This document shows, piece by piece, positions 3,713 to 61,780 of a stretch of 64,000 nt of DNA. A program made the translations under genes and the position numbers. This DNA comes from Trichocoleus sp. (GTDB taxonomy: Bacteria; Cyanobacteriota; Cyanobacteriia; Elainellales; Elainellaceae), in the NCBI GenBank assembly GCA_036702865.1, contig DATNQD010000074.1:1-64000 (forward strand). The letters are read 5' to 3'. Every line of letters begins with the position of its first letter. Position 1 is the stretch's first letter. The notes below the pieces were generated by a model. It did no database searches. It was given only the letters and a program-made list of their open reading frames with translations, and was not told the DNA's origin.

Positions 3713-4417
3713 TCAGGGCAGCAGTGCCAGCACAGAGACAGGTGAACCTGTTCCACCCTGCAAAGGCAATACCCCAATCACGATCGTTGTTCCCATTGCC
3801 GGAAGCTGACCCAAGTTTGCCAAGTTTTCTAGCACAATACGCGGCTGTGAGAGAACGAGGCGATTAACGGCAAAGGTTGAATCGTTGCCCGGATCAACGC
3901 CATGCGTATCAATCCCAATGCCTGCAATTTGTCGCTGCTCTAGCAGAAATTCCACTGCCTCTAAGCCAAATCCAGGGAAATGTGCTGTTCCAGCGCGATC
4001 GACATTAAAAAACGCAGTCGGATCATGCCAGCGAATTTCCCAACCCGTATTGAGTAAGACAAGACTACCTGCAGCGATCGTGCCATGCTGCTGTTCCCAA
4101 AGGGCGATATCGGACAGAGTGAGGATGTAATCTGGGTTGTGCAGAACCCGATCGCGGATATCAATGACAATAGCGGCAGCAATCAACGATTCTGGAGAGT
4201 AAGCATCAATCCCAATCCCTCGTTGATAAAAGCTAGCAGGTGCGTTGATATGGGTTGCGCTATGTTCTCCAATCGTCAGTTTTCTGAGCTGATAGCCTTC
4301 AGTTGCAAGATCAGCAACAGTCGTGAGTTCAATGGATGGATCGCCTGCCCAACATGGAATCTGCTCATGAATAACATGGCTGAGTGAAATCACTCGTGAA
4401 TAGGTCAATGTATTCAT
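3713..4417 (-). CDS. Cyclase family (kynurenine formamidase-like) metal-dependent hydrolase
   Basis: The 234-residue protein shows the cyclase/formamidase metal-binding signature: SHVIHEQIPCWAGDP near residue 13, GEHSATHINAPASF near residue 50 (the HxxTHxD-type motif, here with Asn in the Asp position), and GIGIDTHGVDPG near residue 168. Family members hydrolyse N-formyl or ring amide bonds, as in kynurenine formamidase. Its ATG directly follows the stop of the URC4 gene with no base between them, so the two are translationally coupled. I infer that it hydrolyses an intermediate of uracil breakdown. The Asn in place of the usual Asp in the main motif is worth noting. Confidence 0.8.
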   Translation of the reverse strand: MNTLTYSRVISLSHVIHEQIPCWAGDPSIELTTVADLATEGYQLRKLTIGEHSATHINAPASFYQRGIGIDAYSPESLIAAAIVIDIRDRVLHNPDYILTLSDIALWEQQHGTIAAGSLVLLNTGWEIRWHDPTAFFNVDRAGTAHFPGFGLEAVEFLLEQRQIAGIGIDTHGVDPGNDSTFAVNRLVLSQPRIVLENLANLGQLPAMGTTIVIGVLPLQGGTGSPVSVLALLP

Positions 4418-41673: not shown

Positions 41674-42195
41674 ATGAGTCAACCCGCAATGCCTCCTTCG
41701 CCCTCCTCTCCTGCATCTGCTGAAATTGCCCAATCACCGATTTGTCCGACCTGGCAAATTAAACTCCTATATGACGGTCAATGTCCGCTCTGTATGCGAG
41801 AAGTGAACTTTTTGCGAAAACGAGACGCCGATCGAGGGCGAGTTGCTTTTGTTGATATTGCCGCAGATGACTACAACCCAGATGCAAACGGGGGCGTTTC
41901 CTTTAAGGCAGCAATGGGTCGGATTCATGCTGTCTTACCTGATGGAACGATTCTCAGAAATGTGGCAGTGTTTCGCCGAGTCTATGAAGTCTTGGGTATG
42001 GGTTGGGTTTACGCAGCGACCAAGCTACCGCTGATTGGTGCTTTCGTTGATACAGTCTATGGGCTGTGGGCTGACAAACGGCTGGCACTCACCGGACGAG
42101 CGAATTTAGCGACCCTCGTTGCCGATCGCCAGAGACGGCTCACCTGTTCAGAAGAGCGCTGTCGCCTGAATGAAAATGACCCGGATGATAAATGA
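41674..42195 (+). CDS. DCC-family (DUF393) thiol-disulfide oxidoreductase-like protein
   Basis: The 173-residue protein has LLYDGQCPLCMREVNFLRKR near residue 30, the DxxCxxC motif of the DCC family, and RIHAVLPDGTILRNVAVFRR and VYEVLGMGWVYAATKLPLIG later. The first 28 residues are Pro/Ser-rich and unstructured. It is a probable redox partner of unknown substrate, cotranscribed with the MBL protein. Confidence 0.88.
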   Translation: MSQPAMPPSPSSPASAEIAQSPICPTWQIKLLYDGQCPLCMREVNFLRKRDADRGRVAFVDIAADDYNPDANGGVSFKAAMGRIHAVLPDGTILRNVAVFRRVYEVLGMGWVYAATKLPLIGAFVDTVYGLWADKRLALTGRANLATLVADRQRRLTCSEERCRLNENDPDDK

Positions 42196-43264: not shown

Positions 43265-43504
43265 CATTTTGCCGGGATAACATTGCTGCTATCTATCAGC
43301 ACAATTGAGATCAATCAATCCTAGATCGATTGATTAAAAACTTCTTTCGCTTCTTTCCTGTTTCCGGCCTTTTACCAGTTACCCCGTATCCTCTACCCCC
43401 TTTGGGTACTCTTAAATACAATCTCCGAAAATGATTGGAGCCGGGTTGGAGTTCTCTTCAGAACAGTGAAAGTTCACTACCCAATCAATCTAAGGAGTTT
43501 AACC

Positions 43505-43747
43505 ATGTCTGCATTTGATTGTTATTACGAAACTGCTTGCGAATACACTGTTGCAATTAAGCTCAACGTTCCTATTTTTCTTGAGCCTCATGTTCTAGTT
43601 CGTCCTGCACCTTGCGTTAAGCAAAAGTTTCCAGTCTATCTTGAACCTGACCTTTATTTACAGCCCGAAGTGCAAGCAGCACCTCCTGTTTGTCTTCCTC
43701 AACATGGTTATCATCGGGAAGAATTACCCGCACATGAAATGTCATAA
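43505..43747 (+). CDS. Small cysteine-containing protein, paralogue A
   Basis: 80 residues, behind AAGGAGTTTAACC. It begins MSAFDCYYETACEYTVAIKL and contains two similar half-repeats, NVPIFLEPHVLVRPAPC and FPVYLEPDLYLQPEVQAAPP followed by VC. The alternating hydrophobic residues suggest short beta strands. Four cysteines are spaced through the protein; there is no signal peptide. Paralogue B lies 340 bases downstream and a collagen-tailed membrane protein follows. The family is unknown to me; a structural, self-associating role is possible. A longer frame from 43466 is rejected. Confidence 0.75.
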   Translation: MSAFDCYYETACEYTVAIKLNVPIFLEPHVLVRPAPCVKQKFPVYLEPDLYLQPEVQAAPPVCLPQHGYHREELPAHEMS

Positions 43748-44086
43748 TTTATTAGTTTGTTAACTCATAAAGCTCTCATTTAGCTCACTTATTACACACC
43801 CTTTCAAAAGAGATCTTCCATCAAAACTGATAGGAACGATCTCTTTTTTTATTGTAGAGGATAGATCATTCATGACAGAAGCTAGAGCTGAACGACAGCC
43901 CTAACAACGCTTTCTCAAGCGGGATGTTCTGATTTTAGTGACGATCGCCATATTTTTAATACTTAGTACCCTTCCGGGTTATCTTCCTTAAACTATCCGA
44001 AAAGCATCCTTCTTTAGATGGAGTTCACTTTAGAGCAAATCAAACAAGCAACACTCATTACCCAACTACTGAAAGGAGCCCATATC
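43748..44086. other. Spacer between the paralogues with terminator and second promoter
   Basis: It holds the terminator at 43807-43850, a short AT-rich stretch and the leader of paralogue B. GGAGTTC, then CAAATCA and ACTCATTACCCAACTA resemble the leader of paralogue A (GGAGTTC, TTCACTACCCAATCAAT), so the duplication included the promoter region. Confidence 0.5.
43807..43850 (+). terminator. Rho-independent terminator of paralogue A
   Basis: AAAGAGATC and GATCTCTTT pair perfectly over 9 bp, with a 22-nt loop, and lead into a T tract ending at 43850. Confidence 0.85.
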
Positions 44087-44329
44087 ATGTCTAAAGCATT
44101 TGATTGTTATTACGAAACAGCTTGCGAATATACGATTGCAATTAAGTTAAATGTTCCTATTTTTGTAGAGCCTCACGTTCTCATTAAGCCAGCGCCTTGT
44201 GTAAAACAAAAACTTCCTGTCTATCTTGAGCCAGAGATTTATCTACAACCTGAAGTACAAGCAGCACCTCCTGTTTGCATCCCTCAAGAAGTTTGCGAAC
44301 GCTCTGAAGGTTCCGCCTATAAAAGTTAG
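44087..44329 (+). CDS. Small cysteine-containing protein, paralogue B
   Basis: 80 residues, nearly the same as paralogue A over its first 65: MSKAFDCYYETACEYTIAIK, NVPIFVEPHVLIKPAPC, LPVYLEPEIYLQPEVQAAPP. Differences are mostly conservative (V/I, R/K, D/E), while the last 15 residues have diverged (QEVCERSEGSAYKS) and add a fifth cysteine. GAAAGGAGCCCATATC precedes the ATG at 44087. No terminator separates it from the collagen-tailed gene 60 bases downstream, so these two are probably co-transcribed. Confidence 0.75.
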   Translation: MSKAFDCYYETACEYTIAIKLNVPIFVEPHVLIKPAPCVKQKLPVYLEPEIYLQPEVQAAPPVCIPQEVCERSEGSAYKS

Positions 44330-44389
44330 ATAATTTATTTCTTTTAGGTTCTTATTTTATTTGCTTCTCTCACCACCAAGGAGTCATCT

Positions 44390-44782
44390 ATGAACGAACA
44401 ATCTCGCCCATCCCAAAGATCTCAATATCAAGTTATTTCTCAGCCTCAAAAACACTCTATCTGGACTGAAGCAACTCCTTGTTCCTCCCCTATCTATCCG
44501 CCAAATCCCTGCCCTCCTCCTAAGGCTCCCTGTAACTGCGGTGGCTGCACGCAAATCATTACGCCACACCGCAATCCCGTCCATCGGACTTCTTGGGCTT
44601 TGCTCGGTCTGTCATCCCTTCTGTTTCTCTGTAGCTTGCTCTCTAGCTTTCTGCTGCTCTCCTTCCCGCTGAAGCCTGTTGTTTCGCAAGGTATTGGAAC
44701 CCAAGGACCTGCTGGACCTCAAGGGCCCGCCGGACCCGCTGGACCGATTGGATCTCAACAACCCCCGGCAGCCCTTTGGTAA
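44390..44782 (+). CDS. Membrane protein with cysteine-rich head and collagen-like tail
   Basis: 130 residues in three parts. Residues 30-55 are Pro/Cys-rich (CPPPKAPCNCGGC). A strong membrane helix spans about 69-91 (ALLGLSSLLFLCSLLSSFLL). Residues 103-123 are seven uninterrupted Gly-X-Y triplets (GTQGPAGPQGPAGPAGPIG and on). Such triplets form collagen triple helices, so the protein may trimerise and expose its tail outside the membrane. CACCAAGGAGTCATCT precedes the ATG. It follows two paralogous small cysteine proteins, which may be its partners. I know no named family with this arrangement. Confidence 0.75.
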   Translation: MNEQSRPSQRSQYQVISQPQKHSIWTEATPCSSPIYPPNPCPPPKAPCNCGGCTQIITPHRNPVHRTSWALLGLSSLLFLCSLLSSFLLLSFPLKPVVSQGIGTQGPAGPQGPAGPAGPIGSQQPPAALW

Positions 44783-49695: not shown

Positions 49696-52600
49696 ATGGT
49701 TTTAGAGCAACTGAATGATGATTGCTTCGGGGAGGAGGTCTTTCTCTTTCCTGCCTCATTTGCACAGCAGCGACTATGGTTTCTTGATCAGCTTGTTCCT
49801 GATACTGCGCTCTACAATGTACCCACCGTTTTTCGTTTATCTGGCAGATTAAACATTCCCGTCCTCGAACAGAGCTTTCAAGCGATCGTCCAGCGGCATG
49901 AAACGCTCCGCACTACCTTTGACACGATCGATGGTCAGCTCACTCAGGTCATCTCACCACAAGCCCAGATTTCACTGCCGTTAATTGATTTGTCCTCCTA
50001 CTCAAAGGCAGAACAGCCCACAAAAGTAGGAGATTTTTTGCGGCAGGCGATCGAACAACCCTTTGACTTACGGCAAGGTGCGCTCCTGCGATTGCTCCTG
50101 TTAAACCTGGAAGAAACAGAGCATATTTTGCTAATCAATCTGCATCATATTATTTTTGATGAGTGGTCAAGCGGTGTGCTGATTCGAGAACTGGGTGCAT
50201 TCTATACGGCTCTACTACATAATCAGCCTGTTTTGCTGCCCGAACTGCCCATTCAATATGCAGATTTTGCTTGCTGGCAGCGAGATTGGTTGCAGGGTGA
50301 GCGATTAGCTTATCATTTGCAGTACTGGCGACAGCAGTTGAAAGATTTACCCATCCTGACGCTTCCTGAGCAACCAATAGGTTCTCCAGTTCAATCCTCG
50401 ACTGCTCGATCGCCACAAGGAGCAATGCAGTTTGTCGAATTTTCTCAGGCACTATTGAACCAGTTAGAGGCAGTCAGTCAGCAGGAAAATGTCACTCTAT
50501 TTATGACCCTGCTGGCAGCGTTCCAAACATTACTTTATCGCTATACCGAACAAACTGATATTGTCGTTGGTTCCCCGATCGCTAATCGTCATCGCAGCGA
50601 GTTAGAAGATTTAATTGGTTTTTTTGTGAATAGTGTGGTGCTGCGAACCGATCTTTCTGGTAATCCCACCTTTCGATCGCTCTTAAGCCGAGTTCAAGAA
50701 GTCACATTAGGCGCTTATGCTCATCAGGACTTACCTTTTGAAAAGTTAGTTGCAGAGATTCATCCAGAAAGGCATTTGAACCGTAACCCTCTATTTCAAG
50801 TTGTGTTTGCGCTCCAAAATGCGCCAATGGATGACCTGAAGTTGCCAGGTTTGACCCTGAGTTCCTTGAATTTTGAAACAAAAACAACGCGCTTTGATTT
50901 AGAGTTTTATGTCTGGAAAAGTACAGATAATTTCAGGAGTTTGTGGGGACAGGGTTGGCAGCGATCGGACGGATTACGAGGCGTTATTGTCTATAATGCT
51001 TGTCGATTTACACCTGAGTTCATTCGTCAACTGAGTCAGAATTTTGAGACATTACTGACCGGAATTACGACCAATCCCAATACGCCGATCGCCCATCTGC
51101 CACTCTTAGCTGAAACAGAACAGCAGCAGATTTTATTGGATTGGAATAACACAAAAACATCCTATCCTGCCGATCGCACCATCCACCAATTGTTTGAAAC
51201 ACAGGCAGCAAAAACACCAAATGCTGTTGCAATCCAGTTTGGTCAGCAGCAGTTTAGCTATCTGGGTTTGAATCAGGGCAGCAATCAACTGGCACATTAT
51301 TTGCGAAAGCAAGGCGTTGGTATAGAAACAAAGGTTGCAGTTTGTCTCGATCGATCGCCCCAGGCAATTGCGGCAATGTTGGGCATTTTGAAAGCTGGAG
51401 GTGCTTATGTGCCACTTGATCCCACTTATCCTGCCGAACGTCTGCAATTTATCCTCAAAGATGCTCAAGTCTCGATCATACTGACTGAGCAACAATGGAC
51501 CGATCGGCTCGGAGATACGACGGCAACTGTGGTTTGCTTCGATCGTGATTGGGAAGCGATTAGTTGCGAAAGGGACACAAATCCGAAGCATGAAGGAAGT
51601 GCTAAGAGCTTGGCTTACATCATGTATACCTCCGGTTCAACGGGTCAACCGAAAGGGGTTGCAGTGATTCATCAAAGCATCATTCGCTTAGTTTGCAAAA
51701 CGAACTACATCCAATTGCGATCGACTGATAAAGTTGCTCAGGCTGCGAATCTTGCCTTTGATGCTGCCACCTTTGAGATTTGGGGCGCACTGCTGCATGG
51801 CGCACAATTAATCGGCGTTGAGCCGGAGACGCTGCTTTCACCCACTCAGTTTGTTGCTCAGCTTCGATCGCAGCAGATCAGCGTTTTATTTCTAACAACT
51901 GCCTTATTGAATCAAATCGTTAGTGCAATTCCGAGTGCGTTTGCTTCGCTGAAATATTTACTGTTTGGCGGCGAGGCGGTCAATTTGCAGCGAGTTAAAA
52001 CAGTCCTTCAGGCAGGGAAACCAAAGCATCTGCTTCATGTTTATGGACCGACCGAGAACACGACATTTACATCCTGGTATGAAGTCAAAATGCTCAGTCA
52101 GGATATGACAACCGTTCCCATTGGTCGCCCGATCGCCAATACGCAAATTTATTTGCTGGATACTCATCTCAATCCGGTTCCGGTTGGCGTGGTGGGTGAA
52201 ATTTATGTGGGTGGAGATGGCTTGGCACGAGGTTATTTCAACCAGCCGGAGTTGACGCAAGAATGGTTTATTCCGCATCCTTTTAATCAGGGATTTAATC
52301 AGGGATTTAATCAGGCGAATCAACCTCAACAGATAACCGGGAAGCGGCTCTATCGCACTGGAGATTTGGCGCGTTATCGAGCTGACGGCAATCTAGAATT
52401 TATAGGTCGAAGAGATGATCAGATTAAACTGCGCGGTTTTCGGATTGAATTATCGGAAATTGAAACCCGCCTGAATCAACATCCAGCCATTGCAGCAGCA
52501 GCAGTCAATGTGCAGACCATCAGCGACGATCGACGACTGGTTGCCTATGTTGTGCTTCATGAAGCGACCCTTTCAACACTCGCAATTCAGGACTTTTTGC

Positions 52601-53037
52601 GATCGACATTGCCTGATTATATGGTTCCATCCCTCGTCATGGTTGTAGATGCCATTCCACTTACCCCTAACGGAAAAATCGATCGTCGTGCCCTGCCCAT
52701 TCCCACTTGCCAACCCACCATAACGCCGATCGTCGCTCCACAAACCTCGATCGAAACGACCCTTGCTGAAATTTGGAGTCCGCTGTTGGGCGTTGGCTCA
52801 GTCAGTGTTCATGATAATTTTTTCGAGGCGGGTGGACATTCTCTGCTGGCGACTCAGCTCATTTCCCGCATTCGAGATGTGCTACAAATTGAAATTCCGC
52901 TGCGATGCCTGTTTGAAACGCCAACGATCGCCGGACTCGCTCAATTCATCCAGACCATTCAAACTGCCCAGGGAACTGCATTATCCAACCGCATCCCAGG
53001 TTCAGAACCGCATCATTGGGAAGAGGTAGAACTGTGA
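49696..53037 (+). CDS. NRPS module 1: C-A-PCP (predicted Ile-type)
   Basis: 1113 residues. A condensation domain (residues 1-450) has SFAQQRLWFLDQL and the active site HHIIFDEWSSG near 149. An adenylation domain runs about 488-1000: AYIMYTSGSTGQPKGV (A3) near 641, YGPTENTTF (A5), YRTGDLARY (A7), and the lysine in NGKIDRRALP. The carrier domain has FFEAGGHSLLATQL near 1040. I read the specificity residues as DAFFLGVTFK, a code I remember for isoleucine in cyanobacterial cyanopeptolin-type synthetases. A FNQG tandem triplet lies before A7. The condensation domain is N-terminal with no loading partner in the window. It overlaps module 2 by 4 bases (GTGA). Confidence 0.93.
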   Translation: MVLEQLNDDCFGEEVFLFPASFAQQRLWFLDQLVPDTALYNVPTVFRLSGRLNIPVLEQSFQAIVQRHETLRTTFDTIDGQLTQVISPQAQISLPLIDLSSYSKAEQPTKVGDFLRQAIEQPFDLRQGALLRLLLLNLEETEHILLINLHHIIFDEWSSGVLIRELGAFYTALLHNQPVLLPELPIQYADFACWQRDWLQGERLAYHLQYWRQQLKDLPILTLPEQPIGSPVQSSTARSPQGAMQFVEFSQALLNQLEAVSQQENVTLFMTLLAAFQTLLYRYTEQTDIVVGSPIANRHRSELEDLIGFFVNSVVLRTDLSGNPTFRSLLSRVQEVTLGAYAHQDLPFEKLVAEIHPERHLNRNPLFQVVFALQNAPMDDLKLPGLTLSSLNFETKTTRFDLEFYVWKSTDNFRSLWGQGWQRSDGLRGVIVYNACRFTPEFIRQLSQNFETLLTGITTNPNTPIAHLPLLAETEQQQILLDWNNTKTSYPADRTIHQLFETQAAKTPNAVAIQFGQQQFSYLGLNQGSNQLAHYLRKQGVGIETKVAVCLDRSPQAIAAMLGILKAGGAYVPLDPTYPAERLQFILKDAQVSIILTEQQWTDRLGDTTATVVCFDRDWEAISCERDTNPKHEGSAKSLAYIMYTSGSTGQPKGVAVIHQSIIRLVCKTNYIQLRSTDKVAQAANLAFDAATFEIWGALLHGAQLIGVEPETLLSPTQFVAQLRSQQISVLFLTTALLNQIVSAIPSAFASLKYLLFGGEAVNLQRVKTVLQAGKPKHLLHVYGPTENTTFTSWYEVKMLSQDMTTVPIGRPIANTQIYLLDTHLNPVPVGVVGEIYVGGDGLARGYFNQPELTQEWFIPHPFNQGFNQGFNQANQPQQITGKRLYRTGDLARYRADGNLEFIGRRDDQIKLRGFRIELSEIETRLNQHPAIAAAAVNVQTISDDRRLVAYVVLHEATLSTLAIQDFLRSTLPDYMVPSLVMVVDAIPLTPNGKIDRRALPIPTCQPTITPIVAPQTSIETTLAEIWSPLLGVGSVSVHDNFFEAGGHSLLATQLISRIRDVLQIEIPLRCLFETPTIAGLAQFIQTIQTAQGTALSNRIPGSEPHHWEEVEL

Positions 53038-56000
53038 CAACCGTTGATTTTTTGGCATATCTGCAAAGCTTGGAAATTCAGCTTGTAATTGAGGACGATC
53101 GCCTGCGCTGCATTGCCCCAGCCGGAGTATTAACGCCTGAATTGCGGGCTGTTTTAGCCGATCGCAAAACGGAGCTACTGGCGTTTCTGCAACCCACACA
53201 ATCGCAGACTGCCGAGCTTTCACTCAAACCCACTCCGCGAGAACCTCATCTCCCCCTATCCTTTGCCCAACAGCGATTGTGGTTTCTGCACCAGCTTACT
53301 CCTGACAATCCTTTTTACAATATTCCAGCCGCGATTCGGTTACGGGGAGAATTAGACATTGCCGCACTAGAGCGATCGTTTAACGAAATCGTGCGTCGCC
53401 ATGAAGCACTCAGAACCAATTTTGGGCAAATCAATCAACAACCCGTTCAAAAGATTATCCCTGAAGCGTCTTTTTCTTTACCTGTTATTGATCTGCAATC
53501 GGTTCCAGAGCAAGATCGGGAGGGAATGACCAAACATTTGAGTACAGCCGAAGCTCGACGTTCTTTTGATCTTTCAGCTGATCCATTACTTCGGGTCTGC
53601 TTATTGCAGTTCAGCGCCACGGACTTTGTTTTGCTGTTGACTTTGCATCATATCGTTGCTGATGGCTGGTCGCTTGGTGTTTTAATTCGAGAACTCACTG
53701 TTCTTTACACCGCTTCCATTCAAGGAACGCCTGCCTCATTACCAACCTTACCCATTCAATATGCCGATTTTGCAGCATGGCAGCGGCAATGGTTGCAAGG
53801 GGAAGTGCTAACCGAACAACTCGCTTACTGGCGCAATCAGCTCCATGAAATGCCTGGCTTGGATTTGCCCTGCGATCGTCCTCGTCCAGCCATGCCCTCT
53901 TATCGCGGCGCAACAGAACCCATCCAGCTCTCTCATGATTTAACTGTGGCACTGGAGGCACTCAGCCAGCAAGAAAATGTTTCGCTGTTCATGACGCTTC
54001 TGGCAGCCTTTCAAACCCTGCTCTATCGCCATACCGGGCAGGAAGATATCACCGTTGGTTCCCCGATCGCCAATCGACATCACAGCGAATTGGAAGGATT
54101 AATTGGGTTCTTTGTCAACAGCCTGACGATGCGAACTGATCTCTCTGGCAATCCCACCTTTCGATCGCTCTTGCAGCGAGTCCGAGAAGTGGCGTTAGGC
54201 GCTTATGCTCATCAAGATTTACCGTTTGAAAAGCTAGTTGAAGAACTTGATCCCGAACGAGACTTAAGCCGGAATCCTTTATTTCAAGTCGTATTTGCGC
54301 TACAAAACGCGCCGATCGAACCCTTGGAGCTTCCCGGACTGCGGCTGGAGCCATTACCGTTTGATGCTGGAACCGTCCGGTTTGATCTGGAGTTTCATTT
54401 GTGGGAGCGACATCACGGTTTGAGCCAGCTTTGGCAAACGGAATCTGAGGGGCTGAGCGGCTTTGTTGCCTACAGCACTGACCTATTCGATCGCTCAACC
54501 ATTGTCAGAATGCTGGAGCAGTTTCAAACACTGTTAGCCGGAATTGTGATTCAGCCCGATACTCGGTTAAGCGATCTGCCGCTGCTCACTGCCCAAAACT
54601 ATCAGCAAATTCTGGTGGATTGGAACCAGACGCAGGTTGCCTATAATCGCCATCTCTGTTTCCATCAATGGTTTGAAGCGCAGGTCGAGCAGTTTCCGGA
54701 TGAAATCGCGGTTGTGGATGGGCAGGAGCAGATCACTTACGCCGAACTGAACCAACGCGCAAACCAACTTGCCCATTTCCTACAGCAGCTTGGCGTCCAT
54801 GCCGATCGCCTGGTGGGGCTTTGTGTTGACCGATCGCTAGAAATGACCGTCGGGATTCTGGGAATTCTGAAAGCGGGTGGTGCTTATGTTCCCATTGATC
54901 CAAATTATCCGCTCGATCGAATTCAGTTTATCTTAGCGGATACTAAAGTTTCGATTGTGCTGACGCAATCCTGGTTATCCCAAAAATTATCAGCTTGTTC
55001 AATTTCGCTCATTTATTTGGACGATCGATCGATTCTGCAAAATCAATCCAAGACAACGCCCAAGAGTACGGTTCAGTCAGGCCATTTAGCTTATGCCATT
55101 TATACCTCTGGCTCAACTGGTACACCTAAAGGAGTTTTAATTCAGCATCGTGGACTCTGTAATGTTGTTGTCGGTCAGCAACATCTGTTTCACCTGAAGC
55201 CAGGAAGCCGAATTTTACAGTTTAGCTCCCTCAGTTTTGACGCTTCTGTTTTTGAAATCGCAATGGCGTTTGGCTCAGGTGGAACACTGTATATTGTCCC
55301 TGATTCGATCCGCACATCCCCTCCTGCATTAGCGCAGTTTCTCCGAGACAGGGCAATTACTCACGCCATCCTGCCGCCTGCGGTTTTAGCTCTGATGCCA
55401 GAGGCTCATTTACCCACACTTCAAACGCTGGTTGCTGGTGGAGAAGCCTGTTCTCAGGAAGTTGTGGATCGTTGGGCAGTCGATCGACAATTCTGGAATG
55501 CTTATGGTCCAACGGAAGCCACCATTTGGGCAACTGCAGCGCGATTAACAGCAGGAAATCCGATCACGATCGGTCGTCCGGTTGCCAATACGAAAGTCTA
55601 TCTTTTAGATGCTCATCTACAGCCCGTATCGGTTGGGGTGACGGGTGAGTTATACATTGCAGGGGATGGAGTTGCGCGAGGTTATTTACACCGTCCTGAA
55701 TTAACTCAGGAACGATTTATCAACAATCCTTTTGACAACGCATCTTGTTATCCGAAGCTCTATAAAACGGGTGATTCAGCTCGCTATCGATCAGATGGCA
55801 GCATCGAATTTTTGGGTCGGGTTGATCATCAGATTAAAATTCGCGGCTTTCGGATTGAGCCAGGCGAAATTGACGTTGTCCTCAGCCAGCATCCGCTCGT
55901 TCAAACTGCAATAACGATCGCCCATCCCCCTGACAGCGCCGATCGCCAGTTAGTGACTTATTTGACGCTCAGTGCTGCTGCTGATACTCAAATGCTGAAA

Positions 56001-57710
56001 CCCTCCTTTCAGAACCAGCACATTGAACATTGGCGAACACTGTATGACCAAACTTATCAACAAGCCAGCGCTGACCCCCGGTTTGATACAACAGGATGGA
56101 ATCGCAGTGATACAGGTCAACCAATTCCGATCGAGCAAATGCAGGAGTGGGTGAACGATCGGGTGCAAACCATTCTGCAATTGAGTCCTCAATCTGTGCT
56201 TGAAATCGGCTGCGGCACAGGGCTATTGCTGTTTCAAATTGCACCACACTGTCAGAAATATTGGGCAACTGATTTTTCAACTGCTTCTCTCGATCGCATT
56301 CAAGCGTTCGTCGCTCCACCATCACCTGAAGCATTACCTCAAGTCAAATTGCTGGCTCAAACCGCGATCGACTTTAGCCAGATTCCCGCTGCTGCCTTTG
56401 ATACTGTCATTCTCAACTCAATTGTGCAGTATTTTCCCAGCCTCGACTATTTGTCCCAGGTGATTGCAGGCTCAACCCAAACCATTCTGCCAAACGGCGT
56501 CCTTTTCATTGGAGATGTTCGGAGTCTACCGCTTTTATCAGCGTTTCACACCTCGGTACAGTTTCACCAAGCCAGCGCCACGCTAGACCGATCGCAGCTT
56601 CAGCATCAGATCCAGAGAGCGATGTTTGAAGAGACAGAATTAGTGATCGACCCGGCGTTTTTTGCCGCTTTGCCTGAACAATTTCCGCAAATTCATCACG
56701 TTCAAATTCAGCTCCTGCAAGGACGATCGCCCAACGAGATGAACCAGTTTCGCTACAATGTGCTGCTTCATTTTGATCCCGCTCTCCCGCGAATGGCTGC
56801 TGATCAAGTCGATTGGATCAACTGGACAAATCAAATGACAGTCGCCAGCATTCGTCAACGTTTGGCTGAAGCACGACCTGAAATTTTGGGGATTACAAAT
56901 ATTCCCAATGCGCGCATCGCCTCTGCAATCCAGCTAACAAAATGGCTGTCTTCTGCCACTGCTCCCAAAACCGTTGGGCGAATGCGTGAAGCCTTAGAAT
57001 CGCTGTCATTCAACGCCATTGAACCACAGGACTGGTGGGATTTAGCCGCAGAACAGTCTTACCGGGTTGAGGTTTGTTGGTCGCCGTTGCATCCTGGTCA
57101 TTATGATGTTTGCCTGATTCGTGCTGATGTTCCAACTCAAGTGGTGATGCCCTTTCTGGAAGCGGCGCGATCGCAGTCCTGCCAGCATTACAGCAACCGA
57201 CCGCTACAGGCAGAATTTGTTCGCCAATGGATTCCCCAACTCCGAACAGATCTGGCGCAAAAATTACCCGATTACATGATTCCTGCCCTCTTTATCATCC
57301 TGGAAACGCTGCCGCTCACCCGTCACGGCAAAATCGATCGCCTCGCCCTACCATCCCCCGATGGCTTAAAGCTGACCAGTACCTATACTGCCCCTCGATC
57401 GCCTACGGAGGAAGCCCTGGTGAAGATTTGGATGGATTTGTTGCGGCTCAAACAAGTTGGGATTCACGACAATTTTTTTGAGCTGGGCGGACATTCCCTC
57501 TTAGCGACTCAGTTGGCTTCACGAATCCGCGATACTTTTAGCATTGAGATTCCCTTGCGAACCCTGTTTGAGTCACCCACAATTCTGCAACTGGCAAGCG
57601 TGATTGATGCCATACAAATCAGCCATGTTTCAGCCGCCGCTCCTGCCCTTGTCCCGCTCGATCGAACCTCCCGTCGCAGGTTGCGATCCTCGATCCAGTC
57701 GGCAGAATAA
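53034..57710 (+). CDS. NRPS module 2: docking-C-A(N-methyltransferase)-PCP
   Basis: About 1558 residues from GTG 53034, which overlaps the module-1 stop. Residues 1-55 (VDFLAYLQSLEIQLVIEDDR and LTPELRAVLADRKTELLAFL) are a TubC-type docking domain that joins the previous synthetase. The C domain has HHIVADGWSLGV near 203. The A domain has YTSGSTGTPKGVL near 688 and YGPTEATIW. Between A8 (about 930) and A10 (about 1415) a methyltransferase is inserted, with LEIGCGTGLLLFQIAP near 1056, giving an N-methylated residue. The carrier has FFELGGHSLLATQL near 1480. I read the code as DAFIVGAIWK, which matches no code I recall, so the amino acid is unresolved. Confidence 0.93.
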   Translation: MTTVDFLAYLQSLEIQLVIEDDRLRCIAPAGVLTPELRAVLADRKTELLAFLQPTQSQTAELSLKPTPREPHLPLSFAQQRLWFLHQLTPDNPFYNIPAAIRLRGELDIAALERSFNEIVRRHEALRTNFGQINQQPVQKIIPEASFSLPVIDLQSVPEQDREGMTKHLSTAEARRSFDLSADPLLRVCLLQFSATDFVLLLTLHHIVADGWSLGVLIRELTVLYTASIQGTPASLPTLPIQYADFAAWQRQWLQGEVLTEQLAYWRNQLHEMPGLDLPCDRPRPAMPSYRGATEPIQLSHDLTVALEALSQQENVSLFMTLLAAFQTLLYRHTGQEDITVGSPIANRHHSELEGLIGFFVNSLTMRTDLSGNPTFRSLLQRVREVALGAYAHQDLPFEKLVEELDPERDLSRNPLFQVVFALQNAPIEPLELPGLRLEPLPFDAGTVRFDLEFHLWERHHGLSQLWQTESEGLSGFVAYSTDLFDRSTIVRMLEQFQTLLAGIVIQPDTRLSDLPLLTAQNYQQILVDWNQTQVAYNRHLCFHQWFEAQVEQFPDEIAVVDGQEQITYAELNQRANQLAHFLQQLGVHADRLVGLCVDRSLEMTVGILGILKAGGAYVPIDPNYPLDRIQFILADTKVSIVLTQSWLSQKLSACSISLIYLDDRSILQNQSKTTPKSTVQSGHLAYAIYTSGSTGTPKGVLIQHRGLCNVVVGQQHLFHLKPGSRILQFSSLSFDASVFEIAMAFGSGGTLYIVPDSIRTSPPALAQFLRDRAITHAILPPAVLALMPEAHLPTLQTLVAGGEACSQEVVDRWAVDRQFWNAYGPTEATIWATAARLTAGNPITIGRPVANTKVYLLDAHLQPVSVGVTGELYIAGDGVARGYLHRPELTQERFINNPFDNASCYPKLYKTGDSARYRSDGSIEFLGRVDHQIKIRGFRIEPGEIDVVLSQHPLVQTAITIAHPPDSADRQLVTYLTLSAAADTQMLKPSFQNQHIEHWRTLYDQTYQQASADPRFDTTGWNRSDTGQPIPIEQMQEWVNDRVQTILQLSPQSVLEIGCGTGLLLFQIAPHCQKYWATDFSTASLDRIQAFVAPPSPEALPQVKLLAQTAIDFSQIPAAAFDTVILNSIVQYFPSLDYLSQVIAGSTQTILPNGVLFIGDVRSLPLLSAFHTSVQFHQASATLDRSQLQHQIQRAMFEETELVIDPAFFAALPEQFPQIHHVQIQLLQGRSPNEMNQFRYNVLLHFDPALPRMAADQVDWINWTNQMTVASIRQRLAEARPEILGITNIPNARIASAIQLTKWLSSATAPKTVGRMREALESLSFNAIEPQDWWDLAAEQSYRVEVCWSPLHPGHYDVCLIRADVPTQVVMPFLEAARSQSCQHYSNRPLQAEFVRQWIPQLRTDLAQKLPDYMIPALFIILETLPLTRHGKIDRLALPSPDGLKLTSTYTAPRSPTEEALVKIWMDLLRLKQVGIHDNFFELGGHSLLATQLASRIRDTFSIEIPLRTLFESPTILQLASVIDAIQISHVSAAAPALVPLDRTSRRRLRSSIQSAE

Positions 57711-57721
57711 GCAGAGGCGCT

Positions 57722-60700
57722 ATGACTTCCATCATTCACACTCCAGAGCAGGGCGATCGATTTGAAGAGGTTTTTCTGTTTCCGGCATCCTTCGCCCAAC
57801 AGCGACTGTGGTTTCTGCATCAACTTGTTCCAGATAGCCCTTTCTACAACGTTGTGGCAGGGATCAGGCTCGAAGGACAGCTCGATCGGTCTGCACTACA
57901 GCAAGCAATCCAGGCGATTGTCGATCGGCATGAGTCACTACGAACCACCTTCACTGTAATTGAGGGTGAATTAACGCAAGCCATTTCGCCAGAAGTCGAG
58001 ATCTGTATTTCAATCATTGATTTACAAACGATGTCGGGTGATCTTGAAGCGATCGTCCAACAGTTAGCCCAGCAGGAAGCAAAACGTTCTTTTGATCTCA
58101 GTCAAGACTTTCCGTTTCGTGTCACCTTATTTCAGCTCAGTCCTACTCAAGCCGTTCTCTTATTTGTGCTCCATCACATCATTACCGATGGTTGGTCAAT
58201 GGGAATTTTGGTGCGAGAACTGAGTGCGCTTTATGCCGCTTTTCGCCAAAATCAATCTGCTGCTCTCGCTCCCTTAGCAATTCAGTATGCCGACTTCGCG
58301 CAATGGCAAAGAGACTGGCTACAGGGTGACGTGCTGGAAACCCAAATCACCTATTGGCGGCAGCATCTCCAGGAACTTCCCGTACTAGAACTGCCGTTTG
58401 ATCGCCCCCGCTCCGCCCGTCAAACCTATCAAGGCGCGACCCAATCGATCGCTTTTTCTCCCACCTTAACTCAAGCATTAATCGCCCTCAGTCACCGGGA
58501 AAATGTTTCGCTGTTCATGGTGGTTCTGGCAGCATTTCAGACCTTACTCTATCGCTACTCTGGGCAAGAGAAGATTGTCATTGGCACACCGATCGCCAAT
58601 CGGCATCGCAGTGAGTTAGAAGGGGTAATCGGCTTTTTTGTGAATAGTTTGGTGTTGCAAACTGACCTTTCAGAAAACCTCACTTTTCGAGAACTGTTGC
58701 AGCGAGTTCGGGAAGTTGCATTCGGCGCTTATGCGCATCAAGACCTCCCTTTTGAACAACTCGTCCAGGAGCTACAGCCACAGCGAGACCTGAGCCACCA
58801 TCCGCTCTTTCAAGTCGCACTTGCCCTCCAAAACACCCACTTTGATCCGTTTGAGCTACCCGGATTAAACGCCAGCCAGTTCGAGCTTGATCTGAACACA
58901 ACCCGGCTCGATCTGGAGTTTCATCTGTGGCAAACTTCAGACCAGTTACAGGGACAGATCACCTACAGCACTGATTTATTTAATGCAGATACGATCGCCC
59001 GGATGCTGACTCACTTTCAAACCATTCTGGAAGGTATTGTTAGCCAACCCGATCAGCGACTTGCAACCTTACCGATTCTGACTTTAGCCGAACAACAGCA
59101 ATTGCTTGTCACCTGGCAACAACCCCATCAGCCGCTACCTGCCATTTCCGGAATTCATCATTTATTCGAGCAGCAAGCCGCCCAAACCCCAGAGGCGATC
59201 GCCATTATTGATGAAGACCAGCAACTCAGCTATCGGGCATTAAATCAGCGCAGTAATCAACTGGCTCACTTTCTGCGGCAAGGGGGAATTGGTGCTGAGC
59301 AATTTGTTGGTATTGCAGTTGGACGATCGATCGACATGATTGTTGCCCTATTGGGCGTTTTGAAGGCAGGCGCAGCTTATCTGCCCCTAGACCCAACGCT
59401 ACCCCAGGCACGATTGAGATTCATGTGTCAGGATGCAGGAATTTCGCTGCTGCTCACCCAGCAACAGTGGCTATCTCAATTCACGCAGTCTGACTTCTCG
59501 CCTACATACCCCATTCTTTGTCTTGAGCAAGCCTGGAATTCGATCGCGCAGTACAGCCCACAAAACCCGGTTCATTCCGTTAAACCAACCGACTTAGCCT
59601 ATGTAATTTACACTTCAGGTTCAACAGGGCAACCAAAACCCGTTTTAATTGAGCATCATGGCTTATGTAATTTGGCATCTGCCCAACGTCAAATTTTTAA
59701 TCCTCAATCTAGCGATCGGATTCTCCAGTTTGCTTCTTTCAGCTTTGACGCAGCCATCTTCGAGATCATCATGGCGCTGCAAGTTGGGGCAACTCTTTAT
59801 TTGGTTCGCGCAGATTCTCTCGTTGGCGCTCGTCTCGTTCACCTGCTGTGCGATCGAGGCATCACCTTTGTGACGCTACCTCCATCCCTATTGCGGCTTT
59901 TACCCGTCGATCAGTTACCGCAGCTAAAAACAATTATTAGTGCCGGAGAAGCTTGCTCCTCTGAGCTTGTAGGACGCTGGACAACGGGCGATCGGCGCTT
60001 CTTCAATGCTTATGGCCCGACTGAAGCAACCGTTTGGTCTACTGTCGCGGAATTACAGCCTACTCACATTGCTCCAACGTTGGGAATAGCCATTGCAAAT
60101 ACTCAACTTTATGTTTTGGATCAATGGCTTCAGCCTGTGCCGATCGGAATTCCAGGAGAACTTTATATTGGTGGGGCAGGCGTAGCACGGGGATATCTCA
60201 AACGTCCGCAATTAACTGCTGAACGGTTTATTCCCAATCCTTTCACTCACGACTCAACCCGGTTATTCAAGACAGGCGATCAAGTGCGCTATCGATCGGA
60301 CGGCAGCCTGGAATTCTTGGGTCGGATGGATCAGCAGATTAAGATTCGCGGCTATCGGATTGAGTGTGGTGAAATTGAGACGATTCTCAACCAACATGAT
60401 TCTATTCAAGCGGCTGCAATTGTGCTCGATGACAGCACCGAACATCAGCGCCTCGTTGCCTATGTGGTTTTACAAGCACAGCATTCGCTGAATCCCACAG
60501 CGCTACGTCATTTCCTGCAGCAAACACTGCCGACCTACATGATTCCCGCCGTCTTCATCCCGATCGAGGCGCTACCCCTCACTGCCAATGGTAAAGTCGA
60601 TCGCGCTGCCCTCCGCAAGACCGCTCATTCGCTTCCCGTTCAGCCCTTCATGCCACCCCGCACCCCAACTGAAAAAAAACTGGCGCGAATCTGGATGCAG

Positions 60701-61780
60701 CTTCTCGAACGGGAGCAAATTAGCTTGCAGGATCACTTTTTTGAGCAGGGTGGAGATTCCCTATTAGCAGCGCAATTGATCGAGCAAATCCAGCAGCAGT
60801 TTCAGCAAAACTTTCCGCTCTCGACACTGTTTATGGCTCCGACGATCGCCCAATTTGCTGCCCTGATCGATCAATCCCATTCTCAGCAAGCCGCTCTCTC
60901 CTGGTCGCCTCTCGTGCCGCTAAAAGCCAGCCGTTCTGAGCGATCGTTTTTCTGTGTGCATCCCGTTTTTGGTGTGGTTCTGCCATACACTGAACTAGCG
61001 CGCCAGCTCAATCCAGATCAGCCTTTTTATGGAATTCAACCGTTTGGGCTATCAAGCAATCATTCGGCGCATCGCAGCATTCCTGACATGGCAGCCGCCT
61101 ATATTCAAGCCATTCAAACCGTTCAGCCTGAATCACCTTATTTATTAGGTGGATGGTCGTTTGGTGGGCTAGTTGCTTTTGAGATGGCACAACAGCTACA
61201 GCAAGCAGGGCATGAAGTGGCATTACTGGCAATTTTTGATACGATCGCTCCCATTCCCGCAAGCCAACCTTCCCGCTTCACAGTAATTCAATTTTTGGTG
61301 AAAACTGTGCTGCAATCGATTTTTCCATTTTTATGGGATTATCTTTCACTCTTGCGTTCACAACACCGATCGCGATCGACTCACTTCCATACCAAAAAAT
61401 CGACTTATGTTTCCTGGTTTTCTCGCTGGCAATGGGCAACGATCGCGAACCTTTTGCCGCAGGAGTCTCGGCTTCGACTACTCGATGAGATCACCCTCCT
61501 ACCCATGCTCCGCGTCTTCCAGTGCAATAGCCGAGCCGTTCAGCAATATAAACCCAGCGTCTATTCTGGCAAAATTACTTTGTTTAAAGCAGCCGAGGCT
61601 GCCGAGTCACAGCAAGACCCAACGCTAGGCTGGAATCAACTGACCACTGAACCCGTTGAGGTGCATCAGATTCCTGGCAATCACTTGACGCTGCTGAGAA
61701 AACCCCACGTTCAAGAATTCGCGGCACAGCTACAGCACTGCATTGATCGCACCATTTCATCGCAACATTCACATCAATGA
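57722..61780 (+). CDS. NRPS module 3: C-A-PCP-thioesterase (release module)
   Basis: 1352 residues. A C domain has HHIITDGWSMG near 150, an A domain YTSGSTGQPKPVL near 628, YGPTEATVW and NGKVDRAALR, a carrier FFEQGGDSLLAAQL near 1007, and a type-I thioesterase (1070-1352) has FCVHPVFGVV, GGWSFGGLVAFEMA near 1142 with the nucleophile serine and the histidine in GNHLTLLRKP. I read the code as DAFTIAAVWK, close to phenylalanine-type codes (DAWTIAAICK or DAWTIAAVCK), so an aromatic residue is my best guess. Its N-terminus (FLFPASFAQQRLWFL) is almost the same as that of module 1, which suggests duplication of the condensation domain. It starts 11 bases after module 2. Confidence 0.93.
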   Translation: MTSIIHTPEQGDRFEEVFLFPASFAQQRLWFLHQLVPDSPFYNVVAGIRLEGQLDRSALQQAIQAIVDRHESLRTTFTVIEGELTQAISPEVEICISIIDLQTMSGDLEAIVQQLAQQEAKRSFDLSQDFPFRVTLFQLSPTQAVLLFVLHHIITDGWSMGILVRELSALYAAFRQNQSAALAPLAIQYADFAQWQRDWLQGDVLETQITYWRQHLQELPVLELPFDRPRSARQTYQGATQSIAFSPTLTQALIALSHRENVSLFMVVLAAFQTLLYRYSGQEKIVIGTPIANRHRSELEGVIGFFVNSLVLQTDLSENLTFRELLQRVREVAFGAYAHQDLPFEQLVQELQPQRDLSHHPLFQVALALQNTHFDPFELPGLNASQFELDLNTTRLDLEFHLWQTSDQLQGQITYSTDLFNADTIARMLTHFQTILEGIVSQPDQRLATLPILTLAEQQQLLVTWQQPHQPLPAISGIHHLFEQQAAQTPEAIAIIDEDQQLSYRALNQRSNQLAHFLRQGGIGAEQFVGIAVGRSIDMIVALLGVLKAGAAYLPLDPTLPQARLRFMCQDAGISLLLTQQQWLSQFTQSDFSPTYPILCLEQAWNSIAQYSPQNPVHSVKPTDLAYVIYTSGSTGQPKPVLIEHHGLCNLASAQRQIFNPQSSDRILQFASFSFDAAIFEIIMALQVGATLYLVRADSLVGARLVHLLCDRGITFVTLPPSLLRLLPVDQLPQLKTIISAGEACSSELVGRWTTGDRRFFNAYGPTEATVWSTVAELQPTHIAPTLGIAIANTQLYVLDQWLQPVPIGIPGELYIGGAGVARGYLKRPQLTAERFIPNPFTHDSTRLFKTGDQVRYRSDGSLEFLGRMDQQIKIRGYRIECGEIETILNQHDSIQAAAIVLDDSTEHQRLVAYVVLQAQHSLNPTALRHFLQQTLPTYMIPAVFIPIEALPLTANGKVDRAALRKTAHSLPVQPFMPPRTPTEKKLARIWMQLLEREQISLQDHFFEQGGDSLLAAQLIEQIQQQFQQNFPLSTLFMAPTIAQFAALIDQSHSQQAALSWSPLVPLKASRSERSFFCVHPVFGVVLPYTELARQLNPDQPFYGIQPFGLSSNHSAHRSIPDMAAAYIQAIQTVQPESPYLLGGWSFGGLVAFEMAQQLQQAGHEVALLAIFDTIAPIPASQPSRFTVIQFLVKTVLQSIFPFLWDYLSLLRSQHRSRSTHFHTKKSTYVSWFSRWQWATIANLLPQESRLRLLDEITLLPMLRVFQCNSRAVQQYKPSVYSGKITLFKAAEAAESQQDPTLGWNQLTTEPVEVHQIPGNHLTLLRKPHVQEFAAQLQHCIDRTISSQHSHQ

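Follow-up and report, generated by a model that had tools for sequence, protein, structure and literature searches.

Multi-subunit assemblies anchored in the cell envelope are known in general. The chaplins of Streptomyces comprise several short paralogues with alternating hydrophobic beta segments and two conserved cysteines, features that are also found in the small proteins described here. Chaplins are surface amyloids (PMC7582709). The endospore appendages of Bacillus include S-ENA, with Ena1A/B/C, and F-ENA, with the collagen-like proteins F-Anchor and F-BclA; in F-ENA, the polymer is tethered by one collagen-like protein, and a second one makes up the tip (PMC8619143, PMC11952670).

We analyzed a 64,000-nucleotide stretch of contig DATNQD010000074.1 (assembly GCA_036702865.1) of the cyanobacterium Trichocoleus sp., here called the window, in which genes for two small proteins (A and B) are followed by a gene for a membrane protein (C). 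A sequence-only reading of the window had known of no characterized system with such a layout, but a similar one is known in the ENA and F-ENA clusters, where tandem genes for related small beta-rich subunits are accompanied by a further gene (PMC8619143, PMC11952670). These are the nearest known layout, and we treat the likeness as an analogy only. A test for homology found none: no PDB chain and no Pfam family matched the sequences here. The cyanobacterial hosts also form no endospores, the collagen-like tail is not conserved, and the putative anchor has a transmembrane segment.

Results

The open reading frames of A, B, and C stand where the sequence-only reading had placed them, each behind an AAGGAG-type ribosome site (Table 1), and all three are genuine, well-placed genes that are under selection. 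A and B had been called almost identical; their actual identity is 76 to 78%, and the low dN relative to dS between them (0.18 and 0.96, respectively) indicates an old duplication under purifying selection and not a recent copy. A second pair of small genes is present in the same genome (C64:236949-237607), unlinked to the cluster in the window, and gene A is nearer to that pair (85 to 86% identical) than to B. The transcription units are probably A alone and then B-C, rather than a single three-gene operon, given that a hairpin closes A (one absent from the output of a consensus terminator scan), that the gap between B and C is short, and that B has a degenerate palindrome of its own.

Table 1. 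Features of the three-gene cluster and their positions in the window
Feature	Position	Strand	Remarks
Palindrome TACCC-CCTTT-GGGTA, candidate operator	43394..43408	+	111 bp before gene A
Ribosome-binding site of gene A, AAGGAG	43492..43497	+	Read directly
Gene A, 80 aa, small protein of undescribed family	43505..43747	+	60 distinct homologues; dN well below dS
Terminator-like hairpin and T7 run, 3' of gene A	43806..43850	+	-20.9 kcal/mol, z -4.76, 0 shuffles equally stable
Degenerate palindrome copy before gene B	43967..43981	+	TACCCTTCCGGGTTA, 1 mismatch
Ribosome-binding site of gene B, AAAGGAG	44072..44078	+	Read directly
Gene B, 80 aa, paralogue of A	44087..44329	+	
Ribosome-binding site of gene C, AAGGAG	44378..44383	+	Read directly
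Gene C, 130 aa, single-pass membrane protein (type L partner)	44390..44782	+	~60 bp 3' of B
Predicted transmembrane segment of C	44603..44659	+	Residues 72-90, mean Kyte-Doolittle 2.19 over 19 residues; conserved LLGL..L..L
Seven Gly-X-Y triplets of C	44696..44758	+	Residues 103-123, consecutive

Between A and B, positions 43872-43988 (+) may encode a 39-residue single-pass membrane peptide (MTEARAERQP*QRFLKRDVLILVTIAIFLILSTLPGYLP), interrupted by an in-frame TAA; this peptide has no relative in any fetched locus. Elsewhere in the window, positions 49696-61780 hold a three-gene non-ribosomal peptide synthetase cluster (condensation, adenylation, and carrier), with docking and methyltransferase domains in the second gene and a thioesterase in the third. 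A DCC1-like thiol-disulfide oxidoreductase is encoded at 41674-42195, upstream of ribF and the cluster, and was dropped as a candidate disulfide partner because it is not seen beside the arrays at other loci.

A, B, and their relatives form an unrecorded family found only in cyanobacteria, with mostly filamentous hosts. The small proteins have no credible match in Pfam, NCBIfam, PHROGs, PADLOC, or the sequences of the PDB: a profile of 21 members gave no E value below 0.3 against the PDB, and the sole Pfam match of the 21 members at E values up to 1 was a chance one to QLQ (E = 0.067). Plasmid tblastn and viral contig scans found no relatives, and a literature search found no description. Relatives are present in 6 of 36 genomes from the window's own family and in 3 of 386 genomes across the phylum (the window's genome included), with a partial relative in a fourth (G407), absence from a genome being only as reliable as the searches, whose power is low when the protein is short. 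An alignment-based scan of a collection of 84,980 species found 20 loci, in Scytonema, Brasilonema, Tolypothrix, Hassallia, Calothrix, Mastigocoleus, Plectonema, Symploca, Nostoc, and other filamentous genomes; a scan with protein B as the sole query gave zero matches. The total is 27 loci, usually tandem arrays of two to five copies, and the copies within one array in many cases cluster together in the tree.

G407 has short proteins with the motif PCVFQVPIKLEVPIVLD, one of which adjoins a 246-aa protein that starts with the same kind of motif (CEFEIPINFLVPLSFKP); these features lie at L073:3007-3747 and 3979-4152, both on the minus strand, and at L072:3994-4714 on the plus strand. The motif may be a mobile N-terminal module.

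The small proteins had been labeled cysteine-repeat proteins, a label that fails. Each has four or five cysteines, of which just two are invariant in the 60 distinct homologues (C12 and C63 of A); the other invariant residues are P23 and P48. The middle 45 residues alternate between hydrophobic and polar with a period of two, so that the beta-type hydrophobic moment is 1.95 (0.65 ± 0.18 in shuffles) and the helix moment 0.27. This core consists of two amphipathic beta-type segments, VPIFLEP.. and FPVYLEP.., which form an internal repeat: residues 22-34 recur at 42-54 (VPIFLEPHVLVRP and FPVYLEPDLYLQP; P = 0.002). The small proteins show no apparent signal peptide, their N terminus being polar and lacking a hydrophobic segment. 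AlphaFold models of the single chain, made with alignments of 21 and 60 rows, were extended and had no confident fold (pLDDT 65 to 67, pTM 0.17 to 0.28), a result that would fit a protein folding solely in an assembly and would equally fit a disordered chain.

These properties bear on several views of what A and B do. They could be small regulators that act on the membrane partner and sense redox state or metals; the two invariant cysteines would then form either a switchable disulfide or a metal site, and the copies would serve dose. Consistent with this, the cysteines are among the few invariant residues, the lack of an apparent signal would place the proteins in the cytoplasm, and the two strands in a first low-confidence model of B (residues 11-14 and 63-66) contain C13 and C64. 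No CxxC or other recognized ligand pattern is present, however, and a beta periodicity this strict along 45 residues suggests a structural role and not a regulatory one; we consider such a sensing role unlikely.

The alternating hydrophobic and proline-marked beta pattern, the two cysteines, and the several paralogues resemble chaplins in outline, which raises the idea of surface-active, amyloid-like coat proteins that get out by lysis or an unrecognized route and change the wetting of the filament or sheath. Several of the hosts, Brasilonema and Scytonema among them, are genera known from subaerial habitats, which would suit such a coat, but marine and endolithic genera are hosts also. Chaplins are secreted, whereas the A/B family has no apparent signal peptide and no Pfam family match, and a coat fits poorly with membrane anchors bearing cytoplasmic domains. 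We give this idea little credence. A tandem set of small paralogues with a small membrane protein after it might also recall precursors of a secreted peptide (a bacteriocin or RiPP) with C as the export or immunity protein. That reading seems very improbable, as there is no double-glycine leader, maturation enzymes or an ABC exporter are not seen as regular neighbors, and conservation extends throughout the protein in place of a conserved leader and a variable core.

Gene C has all the parts first described for it: a Pro/Cys head, one strong hydrophobic segment, and seven consecutive Gly-X-Y triplets, a run that 20,000 shuffles of the protein never brought above five. Three orthologues, 30 to 43% identical to C, lie beside the small-protein family in other genera (genomes G010, G023, and G033), and W25, C31, C41, C53, LLGL, and the final Trp are invariant among them. 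Conservation across these type L proteins lies in the Trp/Cys/Pro head, in the LLGL membrane segment, and in the last residue. The triplets number seven in the window, six in G023, and two each in G010 and G033, the latter two having instead a polar tail that ends in EYYYYAP.ARW. Since the tract is found in only two of the four orthologues while the head, LLGL, and final Trp are kept, the triplets are one version of a variable tail. C resembles bacterial collagen-like proteins (PF01391) in its seven perfect triplets, but it scores 12.5 bits against a cut-off of 27.2, and the tract is not a defining domain of the orthologues. Tail fibre profiles matched C in the PHROGs and PADLOC search only through the Gly-X-Y tract. 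The sequence-only reading saw a true undescribed cluster and fixed on its least conserved part.

That reading suggested a trimeric surface structure with the small proteins as candidate cysteine-linked partners; in such a model A and B would be outside the cell and disulfide-linked to the cysteine head of C, itself a collagen-like stalk. In its favor are the seven triplets of C, the six of the G023 orthologue, the two invariant cysteines of A/B, and the three of the C head. A stable triple helix would normally need more than seven triplets when hydroxyproline is absent, and this shortness, the small number of invariant cysteines in A/B, and the lack of an apparent signal peptide give no positive support to a disulfide-linked trimeric surface structure. 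Moreover, two of the four orthologues lack the triplets and most arrays lack such a partner, the two outcomes that the reading itself had named as refuting it, and the cysteine head is N-terminal to the membrane segment. Hydropathy and a weak charge bias across that segment (+2 versus +1) suggest that the head is probably on the cytoplasmic side. This extracellular model as a whole is, in our judgment, quite improbable.

A census of the membrane partners, counted by hand, found a type L orthologue at 4 of the 27 loci, an unrelated membrane protein (type N) in that place at 14, and neither at 7; at the remaining 2 the contig ends too early. The type L gene follows the array at each of its loci, which belong to four genera, and in the genomes searched it was found only adjoining small genes (four of four). 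The view of an undescribed conserved cluster is thus far supported. Searches of 60 relatives and of 288 genomes spread over the phylum turned the gene up nowhere else at a convincing score; weak matches (E values of 0.001 to 0.01) were set aside as partial or stop-interrupted. The converse does not hold: 21 of 25 informative loci, including the second pair of the window's own genome, have the small genes with no type L orthologue.

Type N proteins have LMLKVPIDIEIEV near the N terminus, a C-terminal membrane segment, and an NYSWE end, and the gene is on the other strand at one of its loci. Outside genomes with the small family, just one decayed trace of it was found. In a profile comparison, the N terminus of type N matched the first half-repeat of the small proteins with a P value of 1.3e-4 and a probability of only 54%. 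Homology between type L and type N is not detectable. Two type N loci are irregular: the partner in Scytonema sp. RU_4_4 (L055:5380-5921) is apparently frameshifted, and in Nostoc mirabile (L071:4977-5459) an in-frame fusion has joined the start of a small protein to the end of type N, and the rest of the array is gone, apparently by a deletion.

The arrays also share a palindrome, TACCC-N4/5-GGGTA, which lies 107 to 122 bp before the start of A, of B, of the first C64 copy (1 mismatch), and of the first copies in both G023 arrays and the G006 array, G023 and G006 being related genomes. The second copies of those arrays lack it, and gene B has its degenerate copy. Allowing one mismatch or fewer to the 20-mer, the 5.9-Mb genome contains three sites: each of the two arrays is preceded by one, and the third falls within an open reading frame. 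This scarcity, the placement before unlinked arrays, and a leader that folds no better than chance together point to a candidate private operator common to those arrays. An RNA hairpin was unsupported (leader z of -0.7 and -1.0), and we rejected the end of an upstream gene as the source, the first upstream open reading frame found in G023 being on the other strand. The Nostocales, G010, G033, and G009 loci showed no such palindrome.

In G010, G023, and G033, the gene after type L encodes a WD40 protein in which an N-terminal segment is hydrophobic and the C-terminal part is a YkuD L,D-transpeptidase domain (PF03734; E values of 1.9e-28, 4.0e-23, and 8.5e-30), with the HG...SHGC motif intact in all. 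It shares the full domain and catalytic motif with L,D-transpeptidases and differs from them in its WD40 repeats, which are fused to the domain and preceded by an N-terminal membrane segment. The window's cluster has no such gene adjoining it; a homologue with an intact motif, 45% identical in the N-terminal stretch, is unlinked in the same genome (C86). With three linked homologues and one unlinked, all four type L genomes have the WD40-L,D-transpeptidase. It had no match in G006 or G009, which have the small proteins and no type L gene. That it accompanies the anchor of the Leptolyngbya-like group suggests a peptidoglycan link. The residue used in classic L,D-transpeptidase attachment is Lys, however, and the last residue of the type L anchor is Trp. 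PG_binding_1 proteins are encoded upstream of two arrays, in Nostocales and Symploca, at 175 and 900 bp, being next upstream of the one Nostocales array, an adjacency that may be chance.

Discussion

The data establish the family, its arrays, the partners and their linkage to it, the beta periodicity, and the common palindrome, and they support a beta-rich protein in multiple copies whose membrane partners can be exchanged; the cytoplasmic location, the assembly, the anchoring, and the wall link are inferences from them. We tentatively favor a model in which a self-assembling beta protein is held at the membrane by interchangeable anchors. A, B, and their relatives would be cytoplasmic structural subunits whose two amphipathic beta segments let them assemble side by side, with the two invariant cysteines bordering the core. 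The membrane protein encoded 3' of the array would anchor the assembly, its N-terminal part cytoplasmic and its tail periplasmic. This anchor would be replaceable. In Nostocales it would be the unrelated protein with a C-terminal membrane segment, which has one motif of its own (LMLKVPIDIEIEV) that resembles the first beta segment and could extend the sheet. For the Leptolyngbya-like group the anchor would be the protein with the Pro/Cys head, its periplasmic tail collagen-like or not. There, the anchor and the WD40-L,D-transpeptidase, if the latter acts on the same structure, would perhaps link the assembly to the cell wall. We count against this model that the single chain has no confident fold, that seven loci have no membrane partner, that the topology comes from hydropathy and a weak charge bias, that the window's cluster has no L,D-transpeptidase gene adjoining it, that the anchor ends in Trp instead of Lys, and that the two types of partner show no detectable relationship. 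The fuller version is a filament or sheet system of multi-copy cytoplasmic beta subunits with exchangeable membrane anchors, one of them wall-coupled via a dedicated WD40-L,D-transpeptidase, and with one private regulator at TACCC-N5-GGGTA; that all of this holds together seems doubtful.

The small-protein family and both partner families are in none of the libraries searched. As a sequence family the small proteins are unrecorded, and should the assembly model be wrong, they would simply be an uncharacterized family. The wall link, should it be borne out, would represent a new means of tying an internal assembly to peptidoglycan. The occurrence of the arrays in several orders, with two unrelated membrane partners in the same place, points to a functional unit of filamentous cyanobacteria.
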